Assembly: GCA_026995935.1 (NCBI GenBank)
Contig: JALWNK010000056.1
Span: forward strand, 1-37,006
DNA from: Deltaproteobacteria bacterium
Lineage (GTDB): Bacteria; Desulfobacterota; Dissulfuribacteria; Dissulfuribacterales; QOAL01
DNA length: 37,006 nt
Reading direction: 5' to 3'
Shown: positions 5,805 through 17,900 of the stretch, one piece after another
Layout of the letters: each line of letters starts with the position of its first letter
How positions within the stretch are numbered: the stretch's first letter is position 1
The notes under the pieces: generated by a model
Told to the model about the DNA's origin: nothing
What the model saw: the letters and a program-made list of their open reading frames with translations, nothing else
Database searches by the model: none
Position numbers and translations under genes: made by a program

Positions 5805-5998
5805 AGGTCTTGAAGTATTCCTATTCTCTTGAATTCCTTTTTCTTAACGCGGGCGCGCTGACTTTCAACAAACTTCCGAACACTTCGGGTGTCAAGCGGA
5901 AACCAAGTGGCCCGCACACCTCCCTTTCTTATTACAGTAACTTCCTTGTACCTTCTATTTAACCCGTAATATTGGTTTACGGTGCCATCTTTTCTGAC
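5789..5998 (-). pseudogene. 5'-truncated open frame upstream of copy 4, cut by the CRISPR array
   Basis: A 69-codon open frame begins exactly at the last repeat of the array (an in-frame TGA lies inside the repeat) and ends inside copy 4. The translation contains GTVNQYYGLNRRYKEVTV, IRKGGVRATWFPLDTRS and VRKFVESQRARVKKKEFKR: basic and protein-like, not random. It has no ATG; a GTG about 42 codons from the end is the only start-like codon. I read it as the remains of a basic partner gene of copy 4 whose front was replaced by the array. Family not recognised. Confidence 0.45.
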
Positions 5999-6560
5999 GT
6001 TTCAATCCACGCCCCCGCGTGGGGGGCGACGCGCTAAACCACCATTTCCTCCAGCCTGCCCTTAGTTTCAATCCACGCCCCCGCGTGGGGGGCGACAATC
6101 CGCCCCTGCCCGTGTAGGCATCGAGCATGTTTCAATCCACGCCCCCGCGTGGGGGGCGACCAATGTGGCAAGCTCCCTCATTCTCAATGAGGGCATGTTT
6201 CAATCCACGCCCCCGCGTGGGGGGCGACGTCATAAGGCAGTGGAACAGGCTACAGGATGCCAAGTTTCAATCCACGCCCCCGCGTGGGGGGCGACGCGTC
6301 ATCATGGACACCATTGCCTGGGTCCTGGGTTTCAATCCACGCCCCCGCGTGGGGGGCGACGAGGTCATCCGATAACTGGCAGGCCAAACTTTTAGTTTCA
6401 ATCCACGCCCCCGCGTGGGGGGCGACTACTGAGGGGGTGACAGACCCTGCGATCTATGCCAAGTTTCAATCCACGCCCCCGCGTGGGGGGCGACTTGTGA
6501 CCCACTAAAGCCACCACTTCCCCCAAAAGTTTCAATCCACGCCCCCGCGTGGGGGGCGAC
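5999..6560 (-). CRISPR. Type I-C CRISPR array, 9 repeats, 8 spacers
   Basis: Nine identical 32-base repeats start at 5999, 6065, 6129, 6197, 6264, 6329, 6395, 6463 and 6529; spacers are 32-36 bases. As written they begin GTTTCAATCC and end GGGGGGCGAC; the reverse complement ends in GGATTGAAAC, the usual type I-C crRNA orientation. Transcription is therefore toward lower coordinates, the leader is at 6561-6788 beside cas2, and the newest spacer is 6495-6528. CGCCCCC/GGGGGCG forms the repeat hairpin cut by Cas5c. All repeats are perfect, even the trailer one, which suggests a young or recently contracted array. I noticed no spacer matching elsewhere in the window. Confidence 0.98.
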
Positions 6561-6788
6561 AGTTCAAATCTAAGTATAGAAAATTTTATAGAAATTTCAT
6601 CAAATCTTGCGAATATGGCCGAAATCCAATCCCGCAGGGCTCAAAACAAAAAGCATTGGAAAGAAAAAAGAAAAAATTCTATAGGTTACGAATGTGCGAA
6701 CCTCCCTTTGCCTTAGTGTAAAATTTATTTTTAATTTCAATAGGTTATTCATGGTGTTTTGATTTCTTGCTTCAGGTTCGCAATCGAA
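6561..6788 (-). promoter_or_regulatory. CRISPR leader
   Basis: AT-rich non-coding stretch between cas2 and the first repeat, on the leader side predicted by repeat orientation. A TATACT (-10-like, 6573-6578) lies close to the first repeat. A 9-base inverted repeat, TGCGAACCT (6695-6703) and AGGTTCGCA (6774-6782), spans the middle. No open frame here looks real. I cannot fix the promoter. Confidence 0.75.
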
Positions 6789-7079
6789 TCAAATTATTAA
6801 AGGCCCCTCCTGATCAAGAGCCGGTTTTGCTCCCACATGCTCAACTCTTCTTCGCCAATTTTTCCCCAAATAATAGAATCTCAAACTGTCTTTTTCCGGG
6901 TCTATGACATCAATGAGTTTTTGTTTGAAGGTTTCCCATTGGGCGGGATCGACAATACACTCAAAGACTGAAAATTGTACGCGTTGCCCGTAATTTTGAC
7001 ACAATCTGGCAACCTTTCTGAGTCTTTTCTGGCCATTTTGGTCTGTGGTCGAGACATCGTAACTTACAAGTACGAACAT
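6789..7079 (-). CDS. cas2: CRISPR-associated endonuclease Cas2
   Basis: 96 aa, typical length. MFVLVSYDVSTTDQNGQKRL has the ferredoxin-like first strand with the conserved Asp at residue 8; QRVQFSVFECIVDPAQW is the second family block. With Cas1 it forms the integrase that adds spacers at the leader end. It is the last gene of the operon, 20 bases after cas1 and directly before the leader. Confidence 0.97.
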   Translation of the reverse strand: MFVLVSYDVSTTDQNGQKRLRKVARLCQNYGQRVQFSVFECIVDPAQWETFKQKLIDVIDPEKDSLRFYYLGKNWRRRVEHVGAKPALDQEGPLII

Positions 7080-7099
7080 GAATCCTTCCTATATTTCAG

Positions 7100-8131
7100 C
7101 TACTTCCACAAAAAGGGAGGATAACCATCGATATCTCCCCTTATGTAACGGGCGAGTAACTGGGCTTGAACGTGAAAGGCGATGCCAAGTGGAATCTTCT
7201 CTCCAATAAATGGATGAGTGATTACATCCTGCTTCCTTTTTTGATAGGCGGTCAGAACTGTTTTCCTTGTTTCATCATCCATGTAAACTGCACCGGAACC
7301 AGAAGTTGCAAAGCCTTCTGGCCTGATTTGGCCCAAATTTATAAGGCTTAGAACCAAACGGTCAGCAATTACGGGGCGGAATTCCTCCATCATATCAAGA
7401 GCAAGACTTGGTCTTCCAGGTTTGTCACGGTGCAGAAAGCCAACCTGAGGATCAAGACCAACAGCTTCAAGGGCGCTTCTTATGTCATGCAGCACGATGG
7501 TGTATAAAAATGATAAAAGGCAGTTAACCCGGTCCTCTGGAGGGCGTCTGTTTCTGTTTTTAAAAAAGAATTTTTCCTTTTGGTTGGTTATTAGATGATC
7601 AAACACCGAGAAGTAGCTGTTGGCACCGTCTCCTTCCAGCCCTCGGAGCCTGTTTATATCTTTTTCGTTCCTTATTTTTCTTAAAGTGTGCTTTAGTTCC
7701 ACGGAAGCCTTGTGCAATTTCTCAATGTCCACCTTTTCTGCGTGATCACGCTTAGCCCTTTCAATGACCGTCCGGCAGTTATAGAGCTTGCCAATGAGGA
7801 AACTTGCTGAAATTTTTGCTGTTTGCTCCTTATCGTCTGCCAACCGGTACTGTGAGCGTCTTAACAGTACGTTACCCGATACCGGGCCCTGGACCCGGGC
7901 AAGAAACCTGCCTCTTTCGGTGAGGAAAGATATCCCGATGTTTTTTTCTCCGCAAAATCCCATCAGGAAGGGGCTGCATGAAACATTTCCAAAACAGACT
8001 ATGCTGCCAATGGTATGCGCTGGGAGTCTTAGACGGATGCTACCGTCCAGTTTTACTGCTATGGTCTCGCCATCCTTTTTCAAGTATGCGCCCTGGCTCG
8101 TAACATAAAGTGTGTTAAGAAGCTTTTTCAT
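7100..8131 (-). CDS. cas1: CRISPR-associated integrase Cas1, type I-C
   Basis: 343 aa, full length for subtype I-C. Catalytic metal ligands are visible: Glu166 in RGLEGDGANSYF, His234 in GFLHRDKPGRPSLALD, and the acidic cluster LDMMEEFRP (about 245-253). The N-terminal beta domain (MKKLLNTLYVTSQGAYLKKD) is normal. It overlaps the cas4 stop by four bases, so the adaptation genes are translationally coupled. Confidence 0.98.
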   Translation of the reverse strand: MKKLLNTLYVTSQGAYLKKDGETIAVKLDGSIRLRLPAHTIGSIVCFGNVSCSPFLMGFCGEKNIGISFLTERGRFLARVQGPVSGNVLLRRSQYRLADDKEQTAKISASFLIGKLYNCRTVIERAKRDHAEKVDIEKLHKASVELKHTLRKIRNEKDINRLRGLEGDGANSYFSVFDHLITNQKEKFFFKNRNRRPPEDRVNCLLSFLYTIVLHDIRSALEAVGLDPQVGFLHRDKPGRPSLALDMMEEFRPVIADRLVLSLINLGQIRPEGFATSGSGAVYMDDETRKTVLTAYQKRKQDVITHPFIGEKIPLGIAFHVQAQLLARYIRGDIDGYPPFLWK

Positions 8132-8790
8132 AGGGAATCCAGGGCGCTATTAATAAAGTCATGGACACTGAGATCCACCCCGATTTCGGGCATGCAAAGG
8201 TCTTTCATGGAACACCGAGAGCATTTTGATGACCTGGATGGTGGGGGAGTAATGCCAGAAAAAATAAGTTCATGGAGTCTTTTTGCTGAGTCGGCTGTCT
8301 TTTGTCTCAGTTTCCTGTCAAAAGGCACTTTTTCGCGTCTTCTAGTCTTTCCATAAAATAGAAAGCCATACTTAACAGGGGTGCCAAGCTGCTCCTCAAG
8401 GCAAATGGCCTGGGCGCACAGCTGGACCCTGTCCCAGTCCAGGGTCTCTGCCTTTGGACGGCCGCGTTTATATTCAACAGGCCGGGGAGTCCATATCTCA
8501 CCACCGTTAGCAGTTTTTCTGACGAATTCTACTGCATCTGCCTTGCCATAAAGGCCAAGGGCGTAAGATCTAAGCATTAATCCATATTCCACCCTGATGT
8601 CATTGCCCGGCCGGGTTCCTCCCTGGTCCACCCTTTTATGTAAATTGCGACCTTGAGCAGTGAAATAATTTTCTTCCCACAGGCCTTCTATGTGGATCAA
8701 GGCACACTGTCTTTCGCAAAAAAGAAGGTGCTGAATTGCTGATAACTGCAACAGTTCACTGTCCTTATATACCCGCTCTGGCCTATTCAT
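8128..8790 (-). CDS. cas4: CRISPR-associated exonuclease Cas4
   Basis: 220 aa RecB-family nuclease that trims prespacers and selects the PAM in type I-C adaptation. Cys25 (FCERQC) with Cys189, Cys192 and Cys198 (KCSRCSMKDLC) should hold the [4Fe-4S] cluster; Asp85 (GKADAVEF) and the Glu/Lys of PVEYKRGRP form the nuclease site, followed by QLCAQAICLEE. The ATG overlaps the stop of hicA by eight bases (ATGAATAG), so cas4 translation may depend on reading through a toxin gene. Confidence 0.97.
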   Translation of the reverse strand: MNRPERVYKDSELLQLSAIQHLLFCERQCALIHIEGLWEENYFTAQGRNLHKRVDQGGTRPGNDIRVEYGLMLRSYALGLYGKADAVEFVRKTANGGEIWTPRPVEYKRGRPKAETLDWDRVQLCAQAICLEEQLGTPVKYGFLFYGKTRRREKVPFDRKLRQKTADSAKRLHELIFSGITPPPSRSSKCSRCSMKDLCMPEIGVDLSVHDFINSALDSL

Positions 8791-9013
8791 TACCTGTTTC
8801 GAATTCGGTTTTACTGATCCCGCTTTGCCTAATTATGGACATAAGAGTTCCACGTTTTAGGGATTTGTGGTTTGGAACAGGAACGGTAACAGTTGTATTT
8901 GGCAATCGTTTTTGCATAACTATGTGACTGCCCTTTCGCCTTACTTCCAAAAATCCGTGTGCTTCAAGTATCTTGCAGACGTCCTTCCCAGATAAACTTC
9001 TAAGTTTAGGCAA
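8783..9013 (-). CDS. hicA: HicA-type mRNA interferase toxin inside the cas operon
   Basis: 76 aa, YcfA/HicA dsRBD-like toxin. SGKDVCKILEAHGFLEVRRK then GSHIVMQKR carries the catalytic histidine (His30), and the basic patch is intact, so it should be active. It starts at a TTG that overlaps the hicB stop, with GAGGTAG just upstream. Order here is antitoxin first, the reverse of the classic hicA-hicB order but known in the family. It lies between cas7 and cas4 and overlaps cas4. Confidence 0.92.
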   Translation of the reverse strand: MPKLRSLSGKDVCKILEAHGFLEVRRKGSHIVMQKRLPNTTVTVPVPNHKSLKRGTLMSIIRQSGISKTEFETGNE

Positions 9014-9227
9014 TTGCTACCTCTATCGGGGAGATAAAAATTTCGGTTTTAAGGCGCTCATCGATCTCTTCAGGAGACGCCGTTTCAAAAAAAAGTTCGA
9101 CGGCTTCTGATAAATTCCTTTTCGCCTCTTCAACAGTCCTTCCCTGAGAGGCAATATCCAGTTCGGGACAAAGGGCAACATACATGTCGTCTTCTTTGTT
9201 GAGTATGGCAGTTAGATATTTTTTCAT
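9006..9227 (-). CDS. hicB: HicB-type antitoxin inside the cas operon
   Basis: 73 aa with the degraded RNase H fold of HicB: KKYLTAILNKEDDMYVALCP then ELDIASQGRTVEEAKRNLSE. It lacks the C-terminal DNA-binding helix found in longer HicBs, so on its own it may not repress transcription. GAGG lies upstream of the ATG. Expected to bind and inhibit HicA. Only 54 bases separate it from the cas7 stop, and a hairpin occupies part of that gap. Confidence 0.92.
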   Translation of the reverse strand: MKKYLTAILNKEDDMYVALCPELDIASQGRTVEEAKRNLSEAVELFFETASPEEIDERLKTEIFISPIEVAIA

Positions 9228-9262
9228 GGCTTATATCCTCGCATTTTTAAGGCCTAGAAATG

Positions 9263-9283
9263 AAAAAGGCCTTGAGCCTTTTT
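9263..9283 (-). terminator. Hairpin with A/T flanks at the cas7 stop
   Basis: On the minus strand AAAAAGGC, five-base loop TCAAG, GCCTTTTT: an 8-bp perfect stem with the T-run forming its 3' arm. It starts at the cas7 stop codon. It resembles an intrinsic terminator or attenuator and would split the interference genes from hicBA-cas4-cas1-cas2. The stem is only three G-C/C-G pairs deep, so it may be partial. Confidence 0.5.
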
Positions 9284-10321
9284 ATGGTTTTTCTATCAAT
9301 TCTACTCCCTTGGGAGCGTTGTCCTCGTCTATTAGTACTTCATAATCTTCATACTTTCGTGCCGGGCCATCTATTTCCTCTTTCTTCTTGACCTTAACCA
9401 GATCAAAAAGCACATGGGCTGGGGCATTACCAAGCTCTGAGTCATGCTTGAATATGATAAGTTTTCTTGTGGCCATTTCTCCACGGGCTGCTGAACGGTC
9501 ATGATCAAACATGTTAAGCAGGGCATCCCACAAAAGTTCAAGGTCTCCTTCTGAAAAATCGGTCTGCTTGGCAAGGGGAGCCGAAACGAATCCGTGGGCA
9601 CGGTAAAGACCGTAGGGTACAATAGCTTTTCTTGCCCCCAACCCTTTGTCATCCGGGTTATCAACACTAACTGCCGCCGTTCGAGACATTGCCACATCCA
9701 ATGCTACTATAGGATCAATGCTCCTGGCAAAAGTCAACTGAACTGGACCGCGTACTTGTCCGCAGGTTTTATCACCCGTTGACATAACAGCACCAAAGGT
9801 TCTGACATCAAAAAAATTCTTGCACATCCATTTTTTTGCCATGATCTTTTTGCTGTCAACAAAAAGCTCCTTCAGTTTGGCTTTAGCGGCATCAGAGATA
9901 TCTTTCAATTTCCAAACAGCCTTCTTTGCTTTATCAATATTAGACCCGAGTCTAAGAAAGATACGTTCATCCTCAAATCCTACCCCTTCAGGATAATTTT
10001 GGTAATCACGCAATTCTGGTAACAGATCAGCAGGGACTGAAATGTAAAGTTTCTCGTCATCAAGTGCTTTGTGTGCCCGTCTATGATGTTCAGAAAGGTA
10101 TGCTCCCTCACGAACATGGATCTCATAAGGAGAAACATTTTTTTTTACCATATCCACATAATTTCTCACCTTACGCTTCAAGCACACATCGGTGGTGATT
10201 CCGTGGCCGGTCTCTGGATCGATCCGGGGCAAATTACCACCGTCCGGGTCGCCATTGGGATTGCCATTCTTGACATCGAACAACAGGACAAACTCATAGC
10301 GGTTTTTGATTGCTTCACTCA

Positions 10322-10322
<1 letters not shown>
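9282..10322 (-). CDS. cas7: Cascade backbone protein Cas7c (Csd2)
   Basis: 346 aa. LLFDVKNGNPNGDPDGGNLP is the Csd2 signature, followed by TTDVCLKRKVRNYVDM and FGAVMSTGDKTCGQVRGPVQ. Cas7c copies wrap the crRNA in the type I-C Cascade. It is somewhat longer than the roughly 280-300 aa I expect for this family; the extra length seems to lie in the middle (about residues 85-160). The ATG overlaps the cas8c stop by one base (TAATG) with GGAGG upstream. Confidence 0.97.
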
Positions 10323-12732
<2,410 letters not shown>

Positions 12733-12764
12733 TCACCTCCATACCACACACTTTTTGAATATTT

Positions 12765-14957
12765 TCATCCGAAAAAGGCCTCCCCCTGCGGAGGGGTGCA
12801 TTTTAGCCCGGTGGCATCTGAATAGAGTTCTGCCGAGCGCAATACCCAGACACCTGGGGGCAGATTTTCAAGCCAGTTTTCTATTTCCTTAAGCTGGTAG
12901 GGATAAACCTGCACCGTGTACTGTTGCAGCTTACGCAGGATACCGCCCTTATGATCCGCGTGTTCAAGGGCGTGGACTAGGCGCACCGCCTCCTCGTCAA
13001 CGGCAATAATCACCGGCACGGTGGCAGACTCGATCATCTGGAAGCGGGCCAGATCTTTGAATTGGATATCTCCTCCGGCAGCCTTTTGACAATCGGCGAT
13101 AATTCCGTCCATGTCCATCCGTTGAGAATTCTTCCAGAAATACTCCTCAAAATAGTTACGAACGCACTCCGGCTCGGTGAGGCGGCCGGAAAAACGGTCA
13201 AAGAGTTTTTCTGCCGCCTGGGCAGCCTGTTTGAAAAAGGAGCAGTCCCTGTTTTGGGGAAAGGCAAAGACCGAGACCAGACGAGGGGATTTGTGCAAGC
13301 CATTACGGTTGCAACGTCCCGCAGCCTGGGCAATGGAGTCGATTCCAGCCACGGCCCGGAACACAGCAGGAAAATCGACATCCACACCTGCCTCTATCAG
13401 CTGGGTGCTGACCACCCGACATGGAAGATTGTTTTCCGACTGTAGCCTTCTTCTGATCTCTTCGAGTTTTTCACTACGGTGGGCCGGATGCATCAGTGCA
13501 CTTAAATGAATGTTCTCTTCCGATTCCGGCAGGGCTGTGAAGATATCCAGGGCTTGCTTGCGGGTGTTGACGATGCACAAAACCTGATTGTGCTCCATGA
13601 GCCTCTCTGCCACCTCGGTTTCAGTCAGTGTACCGATAAAACGCTCCTCGGTACGCTTCAAATTTGCAAACAGGGCAGGAACATCACGAATAATCTCGGC
13701 ATCGACCTTGAGTCCAGCCTTGAAATTGTCAGAATAGTTGATCGCGGGCTGGGTGGCGGTACAAAGTACTGTAGTGACCTTGTAATTGGCTGATAATTCC
13801 TTGATGACCTCTAGGCATGGTTTGAGTTTCTCCACCGGGATCGCTTGCACCTCGTCAAAGATGACAACACTGTCGGCCACATTATGCAGTTTGCGGCAGC
13901 GGGATGTTCTATTTGCAAAGAACGAATCGAAAAACTGGACATTGGTGGTGACAATCACCGGCGCATCCCAGTTCTCTGCCGCCAGCTTGTGCTTCCAATT
14001 CTTGTCATCAGTGATGAAGTTACAGTGATGCTCCAGTACCGCATCATCGCCCAGCATCTGCCGGAAGACCCGGGCGTTTTGTTCAATGATACTGGTAAAG
14101 GGAATTACGTAGATGATCCGTCTTTTGCCATGTTTCAGGGCATGGTTTAGGGCAAAGGCCAGCGAGGCCAGCGTCTTACCACCCCCAGTCGGAACGGTGA
14201 GAGAATAAGTTCCCGGAGGCTTGTTAGCCGCCTCCAGACAATCTGCCAGTACTAACTCGCGTTGTTTATTGACATTTAGTCCTGGGTCTGCCTTTGCCCT
14301 AAGTTTGTTAAATTCCTTCCAAAACCGAGCATGTGACTCCTCGATGTCTGGATAGTCACCGCGCTGGGTAAAACGCTCTGGATCAAGAAATTTTTCAGTA
14401 TCAAGGAAATCAGCATCAACTAAACATGAAAAAATCATGCGGGCTAAGAACTGTATCTGAAATCCGAACCGCTCTGGCTCCATGGCAAAGGGAAGTTCTT
14501 CGGTCAGTTCGGCCACTGTGTGAGGAAACGAGATATCTGCCAAAGGGATTGCAAGTTTTTCCCGCAGGGCTGCCGATCCTGTGTCATTCCAGTTCGGCAA
14601 GCCACCATGATGGCCGGCAATGCAGTACGCAAGTAGTTTACCAGCCTGTTTAGAACGGTTGAATAGCAACTTTGCCCCTTCAGCCGCATGGTTGGGGTGG
14701 CCTTTGTAATGCTCGGAAAATTCATCAATGATTCCATTGAACCGGCGGAGGTAGGCCTGCCATGTCTTGGTACCCTTTCCAAGGTCATGCCACAGCCCTG
14801 CAAGGTACGCCCACTTTTCGCCTCCAAACGGCCTGGCAAAACCCGCTGCCAATTCGGCAACATTTTTTAAGTGCTCTTCCAGGGGCTGCCACTTATCAGG
14901 TGGTTCATTGGGCAGGCTATGGGCGTAAAATGCTTGCGGCCGTTGGCACTTATTCAT
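12765..14957 (-). CDS. cas3: CRISPR-associated nuclease-helicase Cas3
   Basis: 730 aa fusion of an N-terminal HD nuclease with an SF2 helicase. His29, His57-Asp58 (GLWHDLGKG), and the later GHPNHAAEGA and AGHHGG histidines form the HD site. Walker A PTGGGKT is at 256-262, DEVQ at 368-371, and motif VI QAAGRCNRNG near 565. All key residues are present, so the effector should be active. It is the first gene of the operon, with about 160 bases from the proposed promoter. No strong ribosome-binding site precedes the ATG. Confidence 0.98.
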   Translation of the reverse strand: MNKCQRPQAFYAHSLPNEPPDKWQPLEEHLKNVAELAAGFARPFGGEKWAYLAGLWHDLGKGTKTWQAYLRRFNGIIDEFSEHYKGHPNHAAEGAKLLFNRSKQAGKLLAYCIAGHHGGLPNWNDTGSAALREKLAIPLADISFPHTVAELTEELPFAMEPERFGFQIQFLARMIFSCLVDADFLDTEKFLDPERFTQRGDYPDIEESHARFWKEFNKLRAKADPGLNVNKQRELVLADCLEAANKPPGTYSLTVPTGGGKTLASLAFALNHALKHGKRRIIYVIPFTSIIEQNARVFRQMLGDDAVLEHHCNFITDDKNWKHKLAAENWDAPVIVTTNVQFFDSFFANRTSRCRKLHNVADSVVIFDEVQAIPVEKLKPCLEVIKELSANYKVTTVLCTATQPAINYSDNFKAGLKVDAEIIRDVPALFANLKRTEERFIGTLTETEVAERLMEHNQVLCIVNTRKQALDIFTALPESEENIHLSALMHPAHRSEKLEEIRRRLQSENNLPCRVVSTQLIEAGVDVDFPAVFRAVAGIDSIAQAAGRCNRNGLHKSPRLVSVFAFPQNRDCSFFKQAAQAAEKLFDRFSGRLTEPECVRNYFEEYFWKNSQRMDMDGIIADCQKAAGGDIQFKDLARFQMIESATVPVIIAVDEEAVRLVHALEHADHKGGILRKLQQYTVQVYPYQLKEIENWLENLPPGVWVLRSAELYSDATGLKCTPPQGEAFFG

Positions 14958-16046: not shown

Positions 16047-17900
16047 TCATTTAATGGGGCGGGCAAGGTCTAAAAAGGCCTTGCATGGCTTTGGGGTGGT
16101 GTCTTTTTTCCAGCTTTTCATAACCGGGTCGTCCATGCCAGGGTGGCAGGAAAGGCAAAGGCCCACGTGCACTATTTTTTCAAGCTCCCTTTGGTCAAAA
16201 GGTCTTAGCCCCTTTCTGCTGGTATGTACCAGAGGGACGCCATCGGTATTTACGAAGGCATCAAGGCGCCTGTCCTGTCCAAATATGGTGGCATTTACGG
16301 AGCTTGAAGGGGTAAAGCCAAAGCTTCCGTCTTTTTTTAGGAATATGTTTCCGTAACCAAGGCCCATGCTTTTTGGATTTTCGTGGCAGTCGCTACAGGT
16401 CCTTGTCTTCTTGGTCGTCGTGTGCGGGTCCATGGTGGAGACCGTAAGCCTTTCAAAGGTGCCCCTGAACTTTTCCCTTTCATCCAGAAAGCTTACAAAG
16501 TCCTGTCAGCCAGGCACAAGGATGACAACATTGCCTCCTTTTCCTCCACCTTCGATCTCTTTTCCAGGTTTTTCTTCAAGGATCCCTAGCACCGGACTCT
16601 CATAACGCATGTAGGATTTAAACTCCTGCCACATGCCAAAGGTCTCTTTTATGGCAAGTTTGTCAAGCTGACGTTTCCCCCGGTCAAAGCGAACGTGGCA
16701 TCCGTAGCACTGGGGAACCCAGGTGCTGTGGCAGGCCTGGCAGGAAAGGCGCTTGTGTTGGGGATTTCTGCACTTTTCCCTTGAAAAGGGGTTAAGGGGA
16801 TGGATCTTCTTGTCTATTTTGCCTTTAAGAAGGATGCGACCGTCTTGTGTCCTTACAAGGTTGTTTAACATGGGAAGTTTCTTCTTGCTCTTCTGCTCCT
16901 TGAAAAGCCTTTCAAGTGCTTTTTCCCCGCCGTGGCAGGAGGCGCACCTTATTTCCACCTGCTGGTAAAGGTGTGCCCTTTGTCTGCCGTCTCCCATGAT
17001 TTCCTTTTGGCTGTGGCAGTCGATGCAGACAAGGCCCTTTTCAAAGTGAATGTCAGGGCGGATTTTCTTGACAAACCTTCCGTCTTCAAGCTGAAGGGAG
17101 GAGGTCTCCCCGTCCTCAAAGGGAGTACCGTAGCCCTCGGATTCGTAAAGGCCCTGATAGGAAAGGCCGATCCTTCCGCTTCTGTTGTGGCACCTGATGC
17201 AGTTTTCCATGGGTATGTTCCTGGTGATGAGGGGGTGCTTGTCCTGTGTGGTGGTTCTGCCGTCTTTCGCCTTTTTTACGTTGTGGCAGGCAGTGCAGCC
17301 GCCGCCCTTTTCTGAGAGAAAGGAGGGAAGGGTGTGTCTTGGAAGCCAGAGGTGGCAGGTGCCGCAAAGTTTCCTGAAGTAGTTGGTGGCCGGGCTTTTG
17401 GGCGCATTTGCCCCAAGAAGCTTTTCAACTGTAATGGGCTCGTTGTGGTCCCTGGTCTCGCCCCAGTAGTATCTGAGGGTGCTTATTATGCCCCTGTTTG
17501 TGGCCATAAGGCTGTTTTTTACGTCCTTTACCTGCTGAACGTGGCATCCTTCCTGGCCGCAGGTCCTTTCAGCCACCCGCAGGTCCCCTGGGTTTAGGAC
17601 CATGCCCTTGTGGGCCTCTTCAGGGGTTCCGGCAAGGGGATTTCCAAGGTGGCAGCTGTAGCATCCAAGCACCTGCCGACCATGTGCCTTGTCAAGGGTC
17701 TCCTTGTGGCAGGAAAGGCACATGTCTATCTGGCCGCTCAAGGTCTTCGTTACTCTGATTGGCCTCTTAAGTGGAGCGCTGTCTGCGGCTAAGAGGGAGA
17801 TTTTGGCGTCGAATCCTGAAATCAGGATGAAGAACAGCCCAAAGAGGAGGATAAGGGCCAGGCCACGGGGCCTTTTTCTTGGGGCAGGGCCTTGATACAT
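16047..17900 (-). CDS. Periplasmic 12-heme c-type cytochrome, predicted selenoprotein (in-frame TGA at 16506-16508)
   Basis: Read through one TGA, the frame gives 617 aa. The N-terminus is basic then hydrophobic (signal or anchor, residues about 14-32), so it is exported. Eleven CXXCH heme sites are visible (CLSCH, CYSCH, CGTCH, CTACH, CIRCH, CIDCH, CASCH, CQACH, CYGCH, CSDCH, CLSCH) plus one CX4CH (CGQEGCH). The TGA falls in VVILVPG-stop-QDFVSFLD, and the last two heme sites lie after it in the same frame. A hairpin 15-29 bases after the TGA fits the bacterial SECIS pattern, so selenocysteine is the likely reading. Alternatives are a pseudogene or sequencing error. I start at ATG 17900; no clear ribosome-binding site precedes it. 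Role: electron transfer, exact partner unknown. Confidence 0.8.
16470..16508 (-). promoter_or_regulatory. Predicted selenocysteine codon and bacterial SECIS hairpin
   Basis: TGA at 16508-16506. Then CTTTC (16491-16487), loop TGGAT, GAAAG (16481-16477): the apical loop begins 20 bases after the TGA and has G in its second position. A lower stem CTTT (16500-16497) with AAAG (16473-16470) closes below an internal loop. Distance, stem and loop G meet the usual bacterial SECIS rules. Confidence 0.7.

Follow-up and report, generated by a model that had tools for sequence, protein, structure and literature searches.

A predicted selenocysteine in a twelve-heme, ExtM-like cytochrome and its putative place at a catalytic heme

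The cytochrome gene and its surroundings

The window, i.e. the whole stretch of 37,006 nucleotides that was analysed (contig JALWNK010000056.1 of assembly GCA_026995935.1, a bacterium of the order Dissulfuribacterales), carries on its minus strand a gene for an exported c-type cytochrome (Table 1). The frame opens at an ATG or at a TTG, the latter being counted as the first residue in the numbering used here; it is interrupted by one TGA and goes on without a shift, through two further CXXCH sites, to a genuine stop, as the initial annotation of this DNA had described. With the internal TGA read as selenocysteine (Sec), the product is 619 residues long if translation starts at the TTG and 617 if it starts at the ATG, and its N-terminus has a hydrophobic, signal-like stretch. 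The label "12-heme" given to it earlier is correct, since there are eleven CXXCH sites and one CX4CH (CGQEGCH), 12 out of 12 conserved. Plain gene calling splits the cytochrome into two ORFs of 466 and 128 amino acids, a split that had been anticipated for annotation software. In an AlphaFold model (pLDDT 81, pTM 0.81) residue 467 lies between two strands.

The gene has as neighbours an EamA-like transporter gene, CRISPR-Cas, a tRNA-Gly gene and a chemoreceptor gene. Among the homologue loci no functional link was found in a conserved neighbourhood: copies in Desulfobulbales often adjoin an ORF for a putative NAD synthetase, and those in the genus of the window adjoin a chemoreceptor. Downstream of the cytochrome and of the putative EamA-type transporter gene lies a complete type I-C CRISPR-Cas system (5992-14957; cas3, cas5c, cas8c, cas7c, cas4, cas1, cas2), the array of which has about nine repeats (GTTTCAATCCACGCCCCCGCGTGGGGGGCGAC) at ~66-nt spacing.

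Table 1 Features of the cytochrome gene in the window, with the evidence on which each assignment rests.
Feature	Position	Strand	Evidence or remark
Predicted selenoprotein gene, exported twelve-heme c-type cytochrome	16047..17900	minus	Frames, homologues
Start options and terminal stop	ATG 17900-17898 or TTG 17906; stop TGA 16049-16047	minus	
In-frame TGA, predicted Sec, residue 467, motif VVILVPG-U-QDF	16506..16508	minus	TGA in 38 distinct orthologues, otherwise Cys
Bacterial SECIS hairpin, 5-bp stem CTTTC/GAAAG, loop TGGAT	16477..16491	minus	Covariation, fold, Sec versus Cys genes
Extended SECIS with lower stem (16503-16497 pairs with 16473-16467)	16467..16503	minus	Folds here, unconserved in relatives
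Heme 10 site CYGCH, residues 400-404	16695..16709	minus	Presence tracks Cys/Sec467
Heme 11 site CSDCH	16383..16397	minus	3' of the TGA
Heme 12 site CLSCH	16143..16157	minus	3' of the TGA
Arg245, candidate active-site residue	17172..17174	minus	Invariant where heme 10 is present, mostly lost in its absence
Glu428, candidate active-site residue	16623..16625	minus	Invariant where heme 10 is present, lost in its absence
Cys379, lone invariant Cys, probable axial heme ligand	16770..16772	minus	Met/His in paralogues
Cys608, lone near-invariant Cys close to the C-terminus, probable axial ligand of heme 12	16083..16085	minus	

TGA and cysteine codons at a single column

A search of 99 related genomes yielded full-length homologues throughout the order of the window and in a small number of other groups of the phylum, including Thermodesulfobacteria, and nearly all of these contain exactly one TGA. 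The orthologues align without a gap over the motif PG-[U/C]-Q. At the column of residue 467, 38 of the 41 orthologues from this search (38 distinct sequences) have TGA and three have TGT; the TGA persists down to ~41% identity and is a feature common to about 40 related genomes. A scan of named genomes gave 80 loci, overlapping partly with the 41 orthologues (some genes are identical), of which 22 have TGA, 33 TGC and 25 TGT, with no other residue. Among the Sec forms are those of Thermosulfurimonas dismutans S95 and of MAGs labelled Deltaproteobacteria, and among the Cys forms those of Desulfobulbus, D. rhabdoformis being one, of Desulfocapsa and Desulfopila and of the cable bacteria Electronema and Electrothrix. 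The cable-bacterial Cys forms (loci L115, L092 and L143) may correspond to the ExtM homologue that is mentioned for cable bacteria in PMC11976967.

Judged by these alignments, the conservation of TGA at the column exceeds chance. Two marks by which selenoproteins are recognised are present: the coding sequence is conserved on both flanks of the in-frame UGA, and Cys-bearing homologues exist at its column (58 of the 80 named loci). The expectation that only Sec or Cys would stand there was thus borne out, and the recurrence of the TGA in many separate assemblies excludes a sequencing error. A true stop, whether in a pseudogene, through an error or between two separate genes, would agree with the 466- and 128-residue ORFs that standard gene calling yields. 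It is extremely improbable, however, because the 38 distinct orthologues from separate assemblies retain the TGA at one column between conserved flanks, all remaining homologues have Cys, and both a SECIS and the Sec machinery are present (see below); error, pseudogene and frameshift readings are excluded, the alignment refuting a true stop. Reassignment or readthrough of TGA as another amino acid such as Trp, in favour of which there is nothing beyond the open frame, is just as improbable: the homologues refute it by carrying Cys and never Trp, the internal TGA is single in a gene that itself terminates with TGA, and the genome has a tRNA-Sec.

In a maximum-likelihood tree, built with the residue-467 column masked in nearly all rows and with Cys outgroups for polarity, the Sec label requires 3 changes versus a shuffled mean of 30. 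Read on the tree, Cys is ancestral, Sec arose from it once, where the Sec clade begins (support 94), and Cys was regained twice; because of some long branches, individual placements are not all secure. The Sec form has been kept in several families. Loss of selB as the cause of the returns was rejected, since the Cys-form genomes of the order (G027 and G032) keep selB.

SECIS hairpin and selenocysteine machinery

The hairpin starts 15 nt past the TGA, its loop starts at +20 and the second loop base is a G, all of which had been noted initially. These properties are those of a bacterial SECIS, a stem-loop 3' of the UGA with a loop G at about +16 to +37. The lower CTTT/AAAG stem that had been proposed in addition folds in the window sequence (-10.9 kcal/mol for the extended structure, z -2.35, 3 of 200 shuffles equal or better), but relatives conserve the upper stem only.

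In the apical stem of 36 distinct Sec sequences, pairing reaches 89%, and both sides have changed in 16 cells. For paired cells, double changes and covariation score alike, 0 of 500 shuffles reach the observed values, and controls slid along the sequence score lower; the counts of doubly changed pairs and of additional pair types do not clearly exceed the shuffles, which limits the evidence that a stem of 6 bp can give. The loop G belongs to a Leu codon that is CTG in 35 of 38 sequences and is among the lowest 1% in codon diversity of 223 conserved columns. Of 41 Sec sequences, 98% have a stem of at least 5 bp together with the loop G, versus 23% of 57 Cys sequences, and for a fixed stem the difference has p ~1e-14, a value that is indicative only, as the sequences are related. 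In Thermodesulfobacteria the hairpin is shifted in position, yet strong.

The genome (100% complete) encodes selA (618 bits), selB (389 bits), selD (368 bits) and a tRNA-Sec (74 bits; called by ARAGORN with anticodon TCA), so that selA, selB, selC and selD, whose presence had been proposed as a check, were all found. Its selD (L148, G000:C48:27361-28284) has one in-frame TGA of its own in the N-terminal part, and the genome is therefore an active Sec user; a search of plasmid DNA with the selD stretch found nothing. SelB scores above its cut-off in 48 of the 51 related genomes tested. Five genomes (G023, G013, G022, G024 and G045) have two selB-like genes above the curated cut-off, or two matches on separate contigs. 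A dsrA-like match with a TGA (G000:C18) was considered as a further selenoprotein and rejected: the TGA looks like an ordinary stop and the frame breaks soon after.

Comparative sequence evidence thus supports the original selenocysteine prediction in its main points. UGA 467 would almost certainly be decoded as Sec, via SelB, tRNA-Sec and the downstream SECIS, in a periplasmic twelve-heme cytochrome of the ExtM-like superfamily.

Relation to known families

Pfam returns generic multiheme domains only. The best NCBIfam match is ExtM (NF040943), the 12-heme cytochrome of the Geobacter extHIJKLMNOPQS cluster for selenite/tellurite reduction. The match is full-length (residues 56-597 to profile positions 15-585) with a similar heme layout, but it scores 268.4 bits versus a curated cut-off of 800, and the protein is therefore an ExtM homologue and not ExtM as curated. 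It differs from ExtM in having Sec for Cys and, at some His/Met ligand positions, Cys; its gene stands alone, without an ext cluster (ExtKL, ExtN, ExtO); a profile search of the genome of the window found no ExtKL above the cut-off. In genome G072, an ExtM-like protein with Cys at the column in question adjoins a Sec-containing ExtKL, in an ext-type neighbourhood.

ExtKL (NF040886) is likewise a multiheme c-type cytochrome, predicted to have a UGA-encoded Sec, in the same phylum. It differs in having 5 hemes, all before the Sec, and a PDG-U-P motif instead of PG-U-QD, and its profile does not match our protein at E 10. The same lack of a match at E 10 holds for the octaheme tetrathionate reductase family TIGR04315, also multiheme and with a predicted Sec (listed as GenBank-annotated), which is named for sulfur oxyanion chemistry and has 8 hemes rather than twelve. 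The VPGUxxT selenoprotein family (NF041383), named thioredoxin-like, has the letters VPGU in common with our protein, which its profile does not match. A search of solved structures by sequence and by fold gave no trustworthy match; that to the undecaheme cytochrome 6qvm is weak (Z 2.9).

An inventory from 2026, which covers 119 selenoprotein families, includes ExtKL and the octaheme TIGR04315 as Sec cytochromes and none like the present protein (PMC13188914), and a text search for selenocysteine-containing cytochromes found no paper. The twelve-heme cytochrome is apparently an unlisted, well-supported selenoprotein family.

Residue 467 and heme 10

In a superfamily alignment of 159 proteins, Cys or Sec stands at position 467 in all 146 that carry heme 10 and in none of the 13 that lack it, where the residue is Phe, Tyr, Gly, His or Arg. 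Few columns are fixed or almost fixed in the first set and altered in the second: those of the heme-10 cysteines (Cys400 and Cys403), Arg245, Glu428, Gly466 and residue 467; Glu318 and Gly519 follow the same pattern less strictly. On the tree a single change divides the two states, which makes this one evolutionary event, so the association could be coincidental. In loci L172, L171, L177, L184, L186 and L062 a heme-10 ExtM-like cytochrome is accompanied, apparently in tandem, by a relative that lacks heme 10 and Cys467, and the two possibly form a two-subunit unit.

There are twelve candidate distal ligands for the twelve hemes (His75, His99, Met134, His224, His287, Met304, His312, Cys379, His384, Sec467, His495 and Cys608), all conserved with the exception of His312, which is incompletely so; such a set is compatible with heme ligation by Sec467. 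Four of the positions change residue in paralogues, as axial ligands would when they switch type. His takes the place of Met134 and Met304 in paralogues of the type found in the same genome; Cys379 and Cys608 look like axial ligands because Met or His replaces them in paralogues that keep Cys467, the His that replaces Cys608 standing in that column or one aligned column beside it. The genome's own Cys paralogue (L059 6359-8260, G000:C67), with 12 CXXCH sites and 297 bits to ExtM, has His at positions 134 and 304 and Met at 379, and lies ~18 kb from dsrA. Unlike the other presumed ligands, Cys467 is never exchanged for His or Met in heme-10 proteins, and a catalytic or structural role therefore fits it as well as that of a ligand.

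The initial annotation had suggested a heme ligand or a catalytic site. This idea is promising and draws indirect support from the strict coupling of Cys/Sec467 to heme 10 and to a conserved Arg and Glu, a coupling that goes back to a single event on the tree. We lean towards placing Sec467 at the distal side of heme 10, in a catalytic site with Arg245 and Glu428 that the other hemes would wire to electron partners. Direct Fe-Se ligation is possible and only a candidate, which we consider unlikely.

A role of Sec467 away from the hemes, as a redox or resolving residue that forms, for example, a selenenylsulfide with Cys379 or Cys608, could draw on the fact that these partners exist and are invariant and nearly invariant, respectively, in the family. 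We judge it quite improbable: both are Met or His in paralogues that retain Cys467, as axial ligands would be, and the loss of Cys467 coincides exactly with that of heme 10. Alternatively, residue 467 might serve the packing of heme 10 in a pure electron-transfer protein, selenium giving only resistance to over-oxidation or a tuned potential. ExtM-like cytochromes are indeed discussed as electron-transfer proteins (PMC5877670), and Cys works in most relatives; this account is improbable, however, in view of an Arg and a Glu that are invariant with heme 10 and Cys467, in the manner of a catalytic set, and of a costly Sec that several families have retained, Cys having been regained just twice. 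As a whole, an ExtM-like cytochrome decoded with Sec, with Sec467 at a putative catalytic site of heme 10, is the probable explanation of the sequence data.

Proposed mechanism and sulfur metabolism

We propose that SelB delivers Sec-tRNA at UGA 467 under the control of the hairpin, a step for which the comparisons above argue strongly. The apoprotein would then be exported and the twelve hemes c attached. Arg245 would bind the substrate, an anion, and Glu428 would transfer a proton as the selenolate at heme 10 forms or cleaves a chalcogen-chalcogen bond, and the heme chain would carry electrons onward from heme 10.

By analogy with enzymes that have a His/Cys heme, such as TsdA, this chemistry might tentatively be the making or breaking of S-S or Se-S bonds of sulfur oxyanions or polysulfide. 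TsdA works through the Cys ligand of its active heme, on which a cysteine S-thiosulfonate forms; TsdA, SoxA and DsrJ, with a reactive Cys at a c-type heme, would be comparable in mode of action (PMC4423706). The protein differs from them in size, and the region has no Pfam or NCBIfam match to them. We know of no Sec form of any of the three.

A sulfur setting is suggested by dsrA, which is present in the genome, and by relatives with sulfur disproportionation, a process reported for the groups of Thermosulfurimonas dismutans, Desulfocapsa and the cable bacteria (PMC4911364, PMC12998232, PMC6976610). The family extends to Desulfobulbus and to related sulfate reducers in general, so the link with disproportionation is loose. 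That Sec467 ligates heme 10 on its distal side, forming a natural selenolate-ligated c-type heme for S-S/Se-S catalysis in the sulfur energy metabolism of disproportionating bacteria and their relatives, is rather unlikely in our estimate.

The cytochrome represents a selenoprotein family that is absent from the fullest inventory that was found (119 families, 2026) and conserved across the order and in Thermodesulfobacteria. Because its Sec and Cys forms are both natural, and Cys was regained twice, the family lends itself to comparing what a multiheme cytochrome gains from selenium. If selenium does sit on the heme iron, this would be, to our knowledge, the first such natural heme. PMC8780430 describes the first step of sulfur disproportionation as unknown, and the cytochrome is a putative candidate enzyme for this process.
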